DNA of 64,000 nucleotides from Paraburkholderia sp. ZP32-5 (lineage in GTDB: Bacteria > Pseudomonadota > Gammaproteobacteria > Burkholderiales > Burkholderiaceae), in NCBI RefSeq assembly GCF_021390495.1, contig NZ_JAJEJP010000003.1, positions 124,001 through 188,000 on the forward strand, read 5' to 3'. The notes beneath the pieces were generated by a model. That model saw only the letters and a program-made list of their open reading frames with translations, was not told where the DNA came from and did no database searches. The position numbers and the translations under genes were made by a program. Positions within the stretch are counted from its first letter, which is position 1. Every line of letters starts with the position of its first letter. Shown here one piece after another: positions 4,638 through 47,900 of the stretch.

Positions 4638-5332
<695 letters not shown>

Positions 5333-8659: not shown

Positions 8660-10636
8660 ATGTCCACGATCGCCGCCAACCATCGCGAACCGGAAACGGC
8701 CGCACCGCCGCTGCTCACGGGCGCGACCATCGACGGGATGGCCGCCTACGAAGCGCTCGTCAACGAAGCTCGCACCGACCGGTCCGGATTCTGGGCACGG
8801 CTCGCGCGCGAGCATCTGAGCTGGCACCGGCCCTTCACGCGGGTGCTCGACGAATCGAACGCGCCTTTTTTCAAGTGGTTCGACGATGGTCTGCTGAACG
8901 CTTCGTATAACTGTCTCGATCGCCATCTGGATAACGGCAATGCCGACAAGACCGCGATCGTCTTCGAGGCCGACGACGGCACCGTGACGACCATCACCTA
9001 CCGGCAGTTGCATGCGCGCGTGTGCCGCGTCGCGAATGCGCTGCGCGCTCGCGGCGTTGCCCGCGGCGAGCGCGTGATGATCTATCTGCCGATGTCGATC
9101 GAAGGCGTTGTCGCGATGCAGGCCTGCGCGCGCATCGGCGCACTGCATTCGGTCGTGTTCGGCGGCTTCTCGGCGAAATCGCTGCACGAACGGATGGTCG
9201 ACGTCGGCGCGGTCGCCGTGATCACCGCGGATGAGCAGATGCGCGGCGGCAAGAGCCTGCCGCTGAAATCCATCGTCGACGAAGCGCTCGCGATGGACGG
9301 CACCGACGGCATTCACACGGTGATCGTCTATCAGCGCACCGGCGGTCCGATCCTGTGGGACGAGCCGCGCGACTGCTGGCTGCACGAGCTCGAAGCCGCC
9401 CAGCCCGACACCTGTGAGCCGGAGTGGGTCGAGGCCGAGCATCCGCTGTTCGTGCTGTACACGTCCGGTTCGACCGGCACCCCGAAGGGCGTGCAGCACA
9501 GCACGGCGGGCTATCTGCTGTGGGCGGCGGTGACGATGAAATGGACCTTCGATCTGCGCCCCGACGACATCTACTGGTGTACGGCCGACATCGGCTGGAT
9601 CACCGGTCACAGCTATATCTGCTACGGCCCGACCGCTGCCGGCGCCACCCAGGTGATTTTCGAGGGCGTGCCGACGTGGCCGAACGCGGGACGCTTCTGG
9701 GAGATGATCGCGCGCCACAAGGTCAGCATCTTCTATACGGCGCCCACCGCGATCCGCTCGCTGATCAAGGCCGCGGAACTCGACAGCGGCGTGCATCCAC
9801 GCCGCTTCGATCTGAGTTCGCTGCGTCTGCTCGGCACGGTCGGCGAGCCGATCAATCCGGCCGCGTGGGAGTGGTACGCGCGCGAAGTCGGCGGCGGACG
9901 CTGCCCGGTACTCGATACGTTCTGGCAAACGGAAACGGGCGGTCACATGATCACGCCGCTCCCGGGCGCGACACCGCTCGTCGCCGGATCGTGCACGCTG
10001 CCGCTGCCGGGCATCGAGGCCGCGATCGTCGACGAGACCGGCTGCGAACTGCCGAACGGCCAGGGTGGACTGCTCGTCATCAAGCAGCCGTGGCCGTCGA
10101 TGCTGCGCACCATCTGGGGCAATCCGCAGCGCTTTCGCAACGGCTACTACCCGGCGGAACTCGGCGGCCATCTCTATCTGGCGGGCGACGGCGCGATCCG
10201 TGATCCGCGGACCGGCTACTTCACGATCACCGGCCGCATCGACGATGTGCTGAACGTCTCCGGCCACCGGATGGGCACGATGGAAATCGAGTCCGCGCTC
10301 GCCGCGCATCCGCTGGTGGCGGAAGCGGCAGTGGTCGGCCGGCCGGACGAGACGATCGGCGAAGCGATCGTGGCGTTCGTCGTGCTCAAAGGTCAACGCC
10401 CGGAGAACGCGGACGCGAAGAAGGTCGCCGATCAGCTGCGCGCATGGGTCGCGAAGGAAATCGGGCCGATCGCCAAGCCAAAGGAAATCCGCTTCGGCGA
10501 CAGCATGCCGAAAACGCGCTCCGGCAAGGTCGTGCGGCGCCTGCTGCGCTCCGTCGCGAAGGGCGAGGCGCTCGCGCAGGACATGTCCACCGTCGAAAAC
10601 CCCACGGTGCTTCGGCAATTCGGCGAACACGCATAA
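8660..10636 (+). CDS. acsA: Acetyl-CoA synthetase
   Basis: A 658-residue AMP-forming acetate-CoA ligase, converting acetate, ATP and CoA to acetyl-CoA. Key motifs in order are the P-loop-like [12 protein letters not shown], the acetate-pocket segment TFWQTETGG with the tryptophan that favours short acyl groups, the hinge-region [13 protein letters not shown], and the C-terminal [11 protein letters not shown] with the catalytic and acetylatable lysine near 623. Length matches the family. GAGGAG precedes the ATG. An acetate-uptake gene follows in the same direction after a repeat-rich gap, so the pair forms an acetate assimilation unit, probably oxygen-regulated through the upstream FNR-like box. 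Confidence 0.94.
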
Positions 10637-10710: not shown

Positions 10711-10776
10711 GCTTTATTCAAGCTTTATTCAAGCTTTATTCAAGCTTCATTCAGGATTCGCTCACGATTCACTCAG
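10711..10776 (+). repeat. 11-bp tandem repeat array ahead of satP
   Basis: Three exact copies of GCTTTATTCAA (10711-10743) are followed by three degenerate copies (GCTTCATTCAG, GATTCGCTCAC, GATTCACTCAG), keeping an 11-base period up to the ribosome-binding site GGAG. The array lies between the acsA stop and the satP start. The spacing of about one helical turn, and the position in the leader, suggest either a variable-number repeat or repeated protein or RNA contacts. Confidence 0.85.
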
Positions 10777-26206: not shown

Positions 26207-26638
26207 TCAGACTCCACGCGTTGTTCTGGCCAACCGGAATCGACCAGGCACATAAGTTTCAACTTTTGAACCAACGCCATCGATCCGGGCATTGGACAAG
26301 CCCTCGAGCGTAACGATATTTGCTTAAAAATTTCTGATGCCGGAAACCCGGCTCGCGGATATTCGTCCCAACAATTACTGTACTGCAAATATTTTTTGGC
26401 TGATAAGACTTCTTTTTCGGCCTTCCGCGTGCTACGCCTATGCCGCAGTCGCGGCTCGGTACTTCTCACCCGACCTGTTCCGGATCGCGCAGCGCAATAG
26501 TCCTTGCTGCCGCGACTCTCACGTTGCCGGCCCCCGGATACGCTCGCGCTTGATGCAGATCAACGGGCCTGGGCGTCAGCACGAGTGCAATGGCGACATG
26601 TACTGAACGATGACGGCAGCTCAACAGACATTGTCCCC
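26207..26638. other. Intergenic region with divergent promoters
   Basis: About 430 bases between the divergent cytochrome b561 and lipocalin genes. The part around 26310-26410 is clearly AT-richer than its surroundings. No convincing coding frame is seen; the only recognisable element is the FNR-like box at 26550-26563. Confidence 0.55.
26550..26563. promoter_or_regulatory. Consensus FNR/ANR box upstream of the lipocalin gene
   Basis: TTGATGCAGATCAA is the exact FNR consensus TTGAT-N4-ATCAA, the best match in the window. It lies 75 bases upstream of the lipocalin start and probably drives the series lipocalin, phasin-like, chaB, usp. Confidence 0.8.
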
Positions 26639-27220
26639 ATGCGGAATTCAATCGCGTGCCTCACAGCGTTCGTCACTTGCCTCGTCGGCTGCACGCACGC
26701 CCCGGCAGTGTCGCCGGAAGCGTCGGCGAAGCCCACTGCCTGTGTCGCGGGTGCGCCGATCGATCTGCAACGCTACATGGGAAAGTGGTTCGTGATCGCG
26801 GAAACGCCCTATCTTGGCGACAACGATTATGTCGGCAGTTACGACGAATGGACGTTGCGTCCCGACGGACAGATCACCGACGATTATCTCGGCCAGCGAA
26901 AATCTTTCGATCAGCCGGTCACAGGAAGCCGCTTCGTGGCAAAGGTCGTACGTGGAACGGGAAATACCACCTGGCGAATCGGCCTCATCTGGCCATTCGA
27001 AGTCGTGGTTATCACCGCATACGTCGATCCCGACTACCGCTACACCATCCGATGCATGGTCGACAGCAATATGGTGTGGGTGCTGTCGCGCAGCCCGACG
27101 ATAGACGAAGCGGCCTATCTGGATCTGATCGCTCGCGCGGCCGGGATGGGTTTCCGCGTCCAGCGAATCCGGCAGGTTCCACAAAATTCCGGGCAAGCCG
27201 GTCCATCTCAATCTCAGTAA
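26639..27220 (+). CDS. blc: Lipocalin-family outer-membrane lipoprotein (Blc-like)
   Basis: A 193-residue bacterial lipocalin. A lipoprotein signal with lipobox LVGC is followed by the lipocalin signature GKWFVIAETPYL and the family word DPDYRYTIRCMVD with VWVLSRSPTI. Blc-type proteins bind lysophospholipids and fatty acids at the outer membrane under stress. The ATG at 26639 lacks a strong ribosome-binding site. It heads a same-strand run with the phasin-like, chaB and usp genes behind a perfect FNR box. Confidence 0.85.
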   Translation: MRNSIACLTAFVTCLVGCTHAPAVSPEASAKPTACVAGAPIDLQRYMGKWFVIAETPYLGDNDYVGSYDEWTLRPDGQITDDYLGQRKSFDQPVTGSRFVAKVVRGTGNTTWRIGLIWPFEVVVITAYVDPDYRYTIRCMVDSNMVWVLSRSPTIDEAAYLDLIARAAGMGFRVQRIRQVPQNSGQAGPSQSQ

Positions 27221-27246
27221 GCGCGCTCGCGACCACGGAGGCATTC

Positions 27247-27700
27247 ATGTTGACCACATCCACTCCAAGCAATTTGCCGGCGATCTGGATAGCCTTCGCC
27301 AACGCGCAAACGCGCAAACGCGCAAACGCAACTCTGCATCGACTGGCTGGCACTGACACAGGAAACATGGGCACGTTGCGCGCTCACGCGCAATCCGCTC
27401 GAATTCATGTCGGCTGCGAGCCTGACCTTTCCCGAGTGCATGTCGAGCGCGATGCTTTACTGCAAAAACGTTTCGGACGTCGTCGATGCGTATCGGAAGC
27501 TCGCCGGTGGCGTCGCCCCTGGCCCAGACACCGCGCCGGCCATCTCCGCTCGCTCCCGCGAAATCGGCCCGGTGAGCGCAGCGCACTCGGCAGCCGGCTA
27601 TCCAGAGCGATTTTCACCACCGCGAGTACCGCCCGAGATGCCGATCGACGGCTCGGAAATCCACCGTTCGCCGCCGCTCAGGATGGACGACACGGAATAA
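27247..27700 (+). pseudogene. Phasin-like gene, frameshifted at an 8-bp repeat (possibly phase-variable)
   Basis: Translation should start at the ATG at 27247, which has a perfect GGAGG 5 bases upstream, and read MLTTSTPSNLPAIWIAFA. After the repeat tract at 27301-27330, the phasin-like continuation (LCIDWLALTQETWARC, LEFMSAASLTFPEC, MLYCKNVSDVV) lies in another frame. One unit more gives a 153-residue protein and two fewer give 145; with the present three units the start frame instead runs on to 27900. Phasins coat polyhydroxyalkanoate granules. The phasin call is moderate; the frame change at the repeat is seen directly. A sequencing error is the alternative. Confidence 0.6.
27301..27330 (+). 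repeat. 8-bp tandem repeat inside the phasin-like gene
   Basis: Three exact copies of AACGCGCA (27301-27324) plus six bases of a fourth. The unit is not a multiple of three, so gain or loss of a copy shifts the reading frame of the gene around it, as in contingency loci that vary by slipped-strand mispairing. Confidence 0.85.
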
Positions 27701-27811
27701 CCGCCCTCGTGAAGCTAACGCCCGATGTCGTGCCGGTCCTGTCCTTGCCTCGCGATATCGTTCGGATCCGCGCGCGCCACGCAAAGGCGAACTCTTCGAC
27801 CGGAGAACGAG

Positions 27812-28021
27812 ATGCCCTACGTCAGCAACGACGATCTGCCCGCATCGGTTCGGGATCATCTGCCATGGCACGCGCAGGACATCTATCGGGCTGCGTTTAA
27901 CGCCGCGTATCGGGAATACGCGGCCGGTGCGCGTCACGAAGAAATCGCGCACCGCGTGGCGTGGGCCGCGGTCAAGCGGTGTTATGTCAAAGACGGCGAC
28001 GAGTGGATCGAGCGGTGTTAA
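27812..28021 (+). CDS. chaB: ChaB family protein
   Basis: A 69-residue protein matching ChaB throughout: DLPASVRDHLPWHAQDIYRAAF, then ARHEEIAHRVAWAAVKR and a C-terminal KDGDEWI. In E. coli ChaB is linked to cation transport regulation, but its biochemical role is unsettled. The ATG at 27812 has CGGAGA upstream. It lies 111 bases after the phasin-like gene and 81 bases before a usp gene on the same strand. Confidence 0.9.
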   Translation: MPYVSNDDLPASVRDHLPWHAQDIYRAAFNAAYREYAAGARHEEIAHRVAWAAVKRCYVKDGDEWIERC

Positions 28022-44986: not shown

Positions 44987-47900
44987 TTAGAACTCGTAGC
45001 CGACTTGAGCACGCACCCCAGCATCGCCCGTAGACGTCACCGATACCGCACCATTCATCAACCACTTGCCGTTCTGCGACCGATACGTCGCTCCGGCGGC
45101 CAACGCGCTGCCATTCTTGTAATTGCCAACACCGGCAGCAACGATCGTACGACCCGGGCCGGACGGCGTCATGTTCGGCATCGCCATCGCGGCCGCCACA
45201 CCTGCGTAGGCGTTTCTCGCCACCTGATTGATCGCGTGGTTCGCCTGATCAAAGCGCTGATCGGTGTAGTTATTGGCTTGCTGCACGCCTTGCGACAACA
45301 GACCATTGACTTGCCCCAGATTGACCGCATCGGTCGGCGCAGTACCTGCCGCAACATTAGTAATCTGACGCTCGTTACCAGCGGAACCCACCGACACGGA
45401 GTTATCGCGATCCGCAACCGAGCCCTGCCCCAGCGCGACGGCATTGTTACCCGTGGCGCTCGAATTGGAACCCAGCGCAGTGCTGTTTTCACCGGATGCA
45501 CTGGCATCGTTACCCGTAGCCGTACTACCGTTGCCCGTGGCTGCCGCGCCCGAACCGAGTACCGTGCTGTTGTCGCCCGAAGCAATTGCACCGGACCCGA
45601 CTGCCGTGCTACCCGAACCAGTACCAGGCAGTGCCGGATTGACCGGGCCCTCAGCATTGTTCACGATCTGCTCGCCCAAATAATTGACCTGGACGTTCAG
45701 TTGATCGTACTGGGTGAACAACTGCTTGTATTGCGTTTCGAACTGGTCCTGCAGCGCATACAACTGCCCGCCGTTGACCGCTTCCATGCTGTTTGCCGCC
45801 ACCAGACCGTTCGCCAGATTGCCGATCACCGTGCCATTAGTGCCGCCCAAGGTTGCGCGACCAAAGCTTAGATCGTCGTACACCAAAGCACCCAACGTTT
45901 GACCGGTCGGATCGACAAGACCTACCGCCTTCAACTGGGCAATGGTCACGGCGTCAGTGTTGTCGGTGCCGTTTGCGACACCTCGTACCACCCGTACGCC
46001 GTCGGTGCCTGCAACGTTGATCGCGCTACCACCAACTTCACTCCCGATCGCGATGTCGCCGTTCGCCGTGTTCTGCCGCACCAGACCGACTGAGCCGTTC
46101 ATCAGACCCGACAGGTTGGCAGTGTTTTCGGCGATGTCTGCGGTGTTCTTCGCGATGCTGCCTTCCGTGTCGGTTACACGGCCGTCAATGTCGGCAATCT
46201 TCGACGTGTTATTAGCAATGTCGGACTTATTCTGAGCGACATTCGTGTTGGTCTCCGCCAGTTGCGAGCCGTTCACTGCGTCCGAGCTGTTCGCGGCTAC
46301 ATTGCCGTCCGCGACACCCGTCAGCCTGCGCGCACCATCCGTGCCGGTGATATCCATCAACGTGCCGCCGGTGACCGACGCCACTGCGAGCGCGCGTGTA
46401 TCCGCGTCTTGCTTCACCAAGCCAACCTCACCGGTGGTTAGTTGATTCGCCAGATTCGTCACCGAACCTTCGACGTTCGAAACACGCCCGTCGATGTTGC
46501 TGATCGTCGACGTGTTTGCAGCAATGTCCGATGTGTTCTTCGCGATGCTGTCCTCAGCCGACAACATACGCGTGTTAGTTGCTGCCAGTTGCGAGCCATT
46601 AACCGCTTCCGAACTGCCAGCTTCCAGTCGACCATCCTTCACGCCGCTCAGCACACGTGCACCGTCGGCGCCAGTGAAGTCCACTAGTGCTCCACCGGCT
46701 GCCGAGGCCACCGTAATCGCCTTGGTGTCGGCATCCTGCTGCATCAATCCAAGCGAACCCGAGCCGAGTTGCTGAGTGAGGTTAGTCACGGAGTCTTTAA
46801 CGCTGCCGATTGCAGATGCATTGGTCTCGATATTGCTCTCCGCGTTGCCAATACGAGTATCCAGACTGCCAATTGCCGAGGTGTTGCCGGCAATATCAGT
46901 TGTGTTCTGCGCAATGTTGCTCTCAGCCGTACCGACACGAGTATCCAGACCGCCGATCGCCGACGTGTTGCCAGCAATATCAGCCGCATTCTGCGCAATG
47001 TTGCTCTCGGCAGACGACACACGATCGTTGGTCGCAGCCAGTTGGGAGCCGTTGACCGCTTCCTTGCTGTCGGAGTTCAACTGGCCGTCCGCAACGCCGC
47101 TCAGCGTACGCGCACCGTCCGTGCCAGTGAAGTCGATCGACGCGCCACCCGTGGCCGACGCCACCGTGATCGCCTGCGTATCCGCGTCCTGCTTCACCAG
47201 GCCGACCTTCGCGTCCAATTGTTGTGCCAAGTCCGTAACCGATCCCTCCACGTTTGCAATGGCAGTCGCGTTTCGCGTTGCATGGTCATCCAGGTTAGCG
47301 ATGGCATCACTCAAATTGTCAACAGTTTCGCCGCCAACCTGAAAACGCGGTGCAACAATCGAACCGGTTTTTGCATCATAGGTTGCCCCCCCGCCCAGTG
47401 CAGCCGCCGTCGCCACGCCGATCGAGTTCGACTTGGCCGCCTCCGAATCTAGCTGACTAACATTGACCGCGTCGGTCGCGGACGCTCCCGCCGCCACGTT
47501 TGTAACGCGACGTTCGTTGCTGGCGGAACCGACAGACACTTCGCCACTCGCAGCCGAAGCAAGCCCCGATACGGTGTTCGCACCGGGGTTGTAACCTGCC
47601 GCACCCAGATCTGCCGTCGTCGTCGATCCGCGGCCAAGTGCCACCGAGTTCGCGCTCGCCGCACTCGCGTTCTCTCCGATTGCTATTGCTCCCGTTGCTG
47701 ACACCGACGCACTGTGGCCAATCGATATACCCGAAATAGCTGCTGAGCTCACGTTTGCGTAGTAACCAATGGAAATGCCATATTTACCATCACTAACTGC
47801 GCTCCCCCCTAGTGCCGTTGCACCGCCGCCAGCAGCAGTCGAAAATTCTCCAAGAGCAACCGATCCACCGCCAGATGCCGTCGAGTTATAGCCAGTCGCG

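Follow-up and report, generated by a model that had tools for sequence, protein, structure and literature searches.

Phase variation driven by simple sequence repeats (SSR) is best known from surface and restriction genes. Paraburkholderia sp. ZP32-5, whose genome carries the locus described here, belongs to the same bacterial family as Burkholderia mallei. Seven coding SSR indels are described in a B. mallei passage study, five of which involved 7-8 nt units and caused frameshifts (PMC1574311); coding SSR frameshifts have therefore been seen in this family. The B. mallei indels resemble the case reported below in their 7-8 nt units, their whole-unit changes and the frameshifts they cause in hypothetical or conserved-domain genes, but isolates of one strain were compared there, while here one genome is compared with other species (PMC1574311). 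A second likeness is to the translational SSR systems catalogued with PhasomeIt, in which a short array whose unit is not a multiple of three lies near the start codon and the number of units sets the reading frame (PMC5953494, PMC6321876). In a 2025 review, the criterion for phase variation is detectable switching in both directions (PMC11868660).

The window analyzed here is a stretch of 64,000 nt on a contig of 1.61 Mb, in a genome of 9,090,529 bases assembled into four contigs with 100% completeness. It contains a phasin-like gene between a lipocalin-family gene and a chaB-like gene. The two closest homologous loci are called L010 and L011.

26550-26563, + strand: putative FNR/ANR-like box TTGATGCAGATCAA, an exact match to TTGAYNNNNRTCAA, 76-89 nt before the ATG at 26639
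26639-27220, + strand: lipocalin-family gene (PF08212, E 3.6e-21 on the ORF 26504-27220)
27237-27241, + strand: GGAGG ribosome-binding site, read directly; GGAGGCATTCATG also occurs in L010 and L011
27247-27300, + strand: phasin-like gene, 5' part, sharing the frame of ATG 27247 and aligning with the intact L010 and L011
27301-27329, + strand: AACGCGCA array, three full units plus 5 nt, 16 nt longer than L010 and L011 at this site
27332-27700, + strand: remainder of the phasin-like gene, out of frame with ATG 27247, 122 open codons, stop at 27698-27700
27247-27900, + strand: reading frame of ATG 27247 as assembled, 217 codons and then the stop 27898-27900, inside chaB
27812-28021, + strand: chaB-like gene (PF06150, E 1.9e-21 on the ORF 27725-28021)

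The tandem repeat is exact, has a period of 8 and starts 54 nt past the ATG at 27247. Three full units are followed by AACGC, which corresponds to 3.62 copies; Tandem Repeats Finder delimited the array as 27297-27329, with 4.1 copies and 96% matches. The octamer unit is not a multiple of three. The remainder of the phasin-like gene is one base off the frame of the ATG, and no stop codon occurs within its 122 codons downstream of the array. The frame of the ATG overlaps the start of chaB (ATG 27812) by 89 nt. What the first-pass annotation had read from this DNA was confirmed, namely an ATG with a GGAGG (both kept in the two closest relatives), a phasin-like coding part in another frame (by one base) and a frame from the ATG that passes the phasin end and enters the chaB start region (stop 27898-27900, ATG 27812). 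Its count of three repeat units is correct for full units and is refined here by a fractional fourth. Its statement that the gene is off with three units agrees with the intact, array-free homologs; in this assembly the extra units put the gene out of frame. Because of the frameshift, the phasin-like protein is not expected to be made in the sequenced genome.

No other period-8 array of at least three copies was present in 864,000 sampled bases of the genome, made up of the window and 40 segments, each of 20 kb, drawn from three of the four contigs. Five order-5 Markov sequences of 864,000 bases each contained one such array in total (mean 0.2), and a 20 Mb order-5 Markov sequence contained none. 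The array is a true tandem expansion, above chance. The two-unit 16-mer was not found elsewhere in the 9.09 Mb genome, both of its matches overlapping inside the array; a backwards-pattern control also gave two matches, the reversed motif being a rotation of the array and presumably matching the same place. Since the 16-mer is unique and the 864 kb contained no other 8-mer array of at least three copies, the locus does not belong to a wider group of such switches.

Other repeats were noticed in the same genome. An exact 11-bp array of GCTTTATTCAA (3.36 copies) occupies 10711-10747 of the window, between an ORF ending at 10636, acyl-CoA synthetase-like by eye, and a downstream membrane-protein-like ORF. 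The highest copy number among periods 7, 8, 10 and 11 in the 864 kb sample belonged to a 7-bp array, GCAGGAA, with 5.4 copies (L051:16814-16851, contig C1 near 116.8 kb); it is overlapped only by ORFs of up to 137 aa and is probably intergenic. The window also contains an 84-bp tandem repeat at 46853-47008 (1.9 copies, 87% matches), and several 6- and 12-bp arrays, with CCGACA in up to 24 copies, lie at L040:15700-16461 (contig C3 near 275.7-276.5 kb).

The phasin-like gene was patchily distributed, being detected in 13 of 144 genomes of the genus including its own. A family-level search gave matches in five of the 398 genomes drawn, again including its own; one of these (G211, locus L030; E 2.4e-4) contained two internal stops and was dropped as not credible. 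No paralog of the same subfamily was found in the own genome, where the single match was the gene itself. A scan of genome contigs identified the two close relatives, L010 from Paraburkholderia sp. UYCP14C (about 53-54% identity to the phasin-like part of the window) and L011 from P. translucens (49% identity; the same locus as G136). Together with the more distant L016-L027, which are 27-45% identical to L010, they make up the 14 homologous loci outside the own genome. L003 and L005 are the same places as L016 and L017, the matches of 25-33 nt at L004, L006, L007 and L008 were dropped as not homologous, and the stops flagged inside L016 and L023 proved to be terminal. Four plasmid records matched near this locus at 60-80% identity and none of them covers the phasin-like gene; three cover the lipocalin gene and one, from Bosea, covers chaB. 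A further plasmid match has the same length as the L022 contig and was not counted as a separate locus.

All 14 homologous loci, from other Paraburkholderia genomes, had an open frame across the site of the array, and all 14 lacked the array itself, with period-8 runs of at most 13 nt in their first 200 nt versus 29 nt in the window. In the alignment with L010 and L011, the window was 16 nt longer exactly at the array. An identical frameshift fixed in all relatives, named beforehand as a finding that would speak against a switch, was therefore not what the comparison between species gave. Judged from the alignment, the two extra 8-nt units are a tandem expansion specific to this lineage, and they put the gene out of frame. 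L010 and L011 have period-8 runs of 13 and 11 nt at the array site, which may have seeded slippage. However, such a seed is ordinary and no special sign, because period-8 runs of 11-13 nt occur within the first 200 nt of every one of the 14 loci; in L023 that segment also contains a period-5 run of 13 nt.

We regard a recent slippage frameshift in the phasin-like gene, incidental rather than an evolved switch, as the likely explanation. Replication slippage would have added the two 8-nt units, which displace the bulk of the coding sequence from the frame of its own start. Translation from that start would then follow the 217-codon alternative frame into chaB. The tract would stay more mutable afterwards, and some cells may differ in unit number.

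The codons downstream of the array allow the age of the frameshift to be considered. For the 60 codons that follow the array, dN/dS was 0.19 for window-L010, 0.34 for window-L011 and 0.28 for L010-L011; in the last 61 codons the values were 0.46, 0.70 and 0.53, and over all codons 0.34, 0.51 and 0.43, respectively. In each segment the intact pair thus lay between the two window pairs. Changes at codon positions 1, 2 and 3 of the first 60 codons numbered 8, 7 and 20 for window-L010, 10, 10 and 21 for window-L011, and 7, 9 and 13 for L010-L011. The dS of the window pairs in this segment was 0.59-0.68; pairwise values of this kind cannot assign changes to one branch and have little power for very recent events. 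Had the frame been lost along the entire branch leading to the window, higher values would be expected for both window pairs. As the downstream dN/dS values of the window pairs are in line with that of L010-L011, the frameshift probably happened recently on the scale of these divergences; alternatively, the gene is often in frame and the change reversible. The window branch may have undergone some relaxation, as window-L011 gave the highest dN/dS over the whole, the core and the tail.

A relationship of the gene to phasins was supported by its homologs. The phasin-like part of the window and L010 had no match to TIGR01841 or PF09361 at E up to 10, and L011 reached 15.1 bits against TIGR01841, for which the cut-off is 30.2. 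Ten of the 14 homologs matched TIGR01841 (best E 6.9e-7) and seven matched PF09361 (best E 7.6e-6) at E up to 1, these being listings by E rather than by curated cut-off. A profile of the 14 homologs, in which the window part was not included, aligned with three phasins by hhalign over 68 columns with a probability of 85% and an E of 6.3e-6. The window gene thus shares with TIGR01841 and PF09361 phasins the weak matches of its homologs, but it belongs to a divergent subfamily. The label phasin-like is fair, and binding to PHA granules is putative. Two phasins above the TIGR01841 cut-off are encoded elsewhere in the genome.

Upstream, the lipocalin gene is probably the first in the same transcription unit as the phasin-like gene. 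Its start at 26639 was picked by eye, from a signal-peptide-like N terminus common to the lipocalin ORF of L011. By eye, L010 has a comparable reading frame behind its phasin-like gene, in the place that chaB takes here. FNR-like boxes with at most one mismatch numbered 21 in the window versus 3.99 expected, and 9 of the 21 were exact. Immediately before the phasin-like gene, L010 has exact FNR-like boxes at 4695 and 4760 and L011 has one at 4818, upstream of the ATG at 4929. In the window, only 26 nt separate the lipocalin stop from ATG 27247, as against 172 nt in L011, and no such box is present between them. The phasin-like gene probably depends on the lipocalin promoter. The first-pass annotation had placed the gene in an anoxia regulon; the enrichment of FNR-type boxes in the window agrees with this, but no such box lies directly upstream of the phasin-like gene.

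The nine exact boxes match the palindromic pattern TTGAYNNNNRTCAA and all fall between 2032 and 26563, so that the first 27 kb of the window is by sequence a dense FNR/ANR-type region. Plasmid pOLGA1 of P. phytofirmans OLGA172 (L009:4005-6913) carries a similar lipocalin gene; the annotation shows a TIGR01841 phasin about 1.8 kb away and nothing phasin-like immediately after the lipocalin gene.

An evolved switch, in which slipped-strand changes in the octamer array turn the phasin-like gene on and off reversibly, often within populations, is unlikely. In its favour, the unit length is not divisible by three and the array follows a conserved start by 54 nt, the codons downstream of it are still constrained, and such constraint would also be expected if the gene were often in frame. 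Relative to L010 and L011 not one but two units were gained, a hint of repeated mutability that slightly favours a contingency locus. With 3.62 copies the array passes the cut-off of at least three given for 6-9 nt units in Neisseria (PMC5953494) but falls below the five-copy cut-off for longer units (PMC6321876). Against a switch, the array is missing from all 14 homologous loci in other species, and the genome offers no rich repertoire, with only four arrays of at least three copies of period 7, 8, 10 or 11 in 864 kb. The present tract differs from the catalogued systems in that it was seen with a single unit number, in one genome, is not common to the homologs and lies in a gene that does not encode a surface structure (PMC5953494, PMC6321876). 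No phase-variable phasin was among the literature matches listed. Of the switching gene proposed at first pass, the out-of-frame state through octamer units stands; the switching itself stays a candidate reading, with the array absent from 14 of 14 loci and a copy number that satisfies one cut-off of two. We favour a recent, incidental loss-of-function allele over an evolved on-off switch. It is doubtful that a phase-varying phasin-like gene serves bet-hedging of low-oxygen storage physiology, with the run-on frame of the off state also modulating chaB.

One-way pseudogenisation differs from an incidental recent frameshift in fixation only. Under it, the species as a whole would carry the frameshifted allele, and the gene, dispensable given standard phasins, would be on its way to being lost; we consider this quite improbable. 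The upstream FNR-like boxes of L010 and L011 have no counterpart between the lipocalin gene and the window gene, and decay would account for both the missing upstream region and the frameshift, although the two do not prove it. The two TIGR01841 phasins and the patchy occurrence in 13 of 144 genomes point the same way. However, the 122 downstream codons are free of stops and their dN/dS lies in the range of the intact pair, and the lipocalin promoter may serve the gene.

An assembly or sequencing error in the unit number is very improbable. The assembly consists of four contigs with 100% completeness, base-calling errors do not usually add whole units, here 16 nt within a tract of 33 nt, and a tract so short lies within any read.

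Least probable of all is that the long alternative frame encodes a functional product or that its run-on regulates chaB translation: the frame runs 217 codons without a stop and reaches 89 nt past the chaB start, and over the downstream part it survives in only 189 of 2000 synonymous shuffles of the window (78 for L010 and 577 for L011), but third positions of the phasin-like frame take most of the interspecies changes in the first 60 codons (20/35 against L010, 21/41 against L011), and the corresponding frame is open in L011 and closed before the end in L010. On these comparisons the run-on frame is somewhat unusual yet not constrained.

If the gene did switch, SSR phase variation would extend to an intracellular storage-granule protein. 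With an incidental slippage frameshift as the likely explanation, the locus clearly illustrates an octamer array at a young stage, in which the relatives are intact without the array and one lineage has expanded the site and lost the frame.
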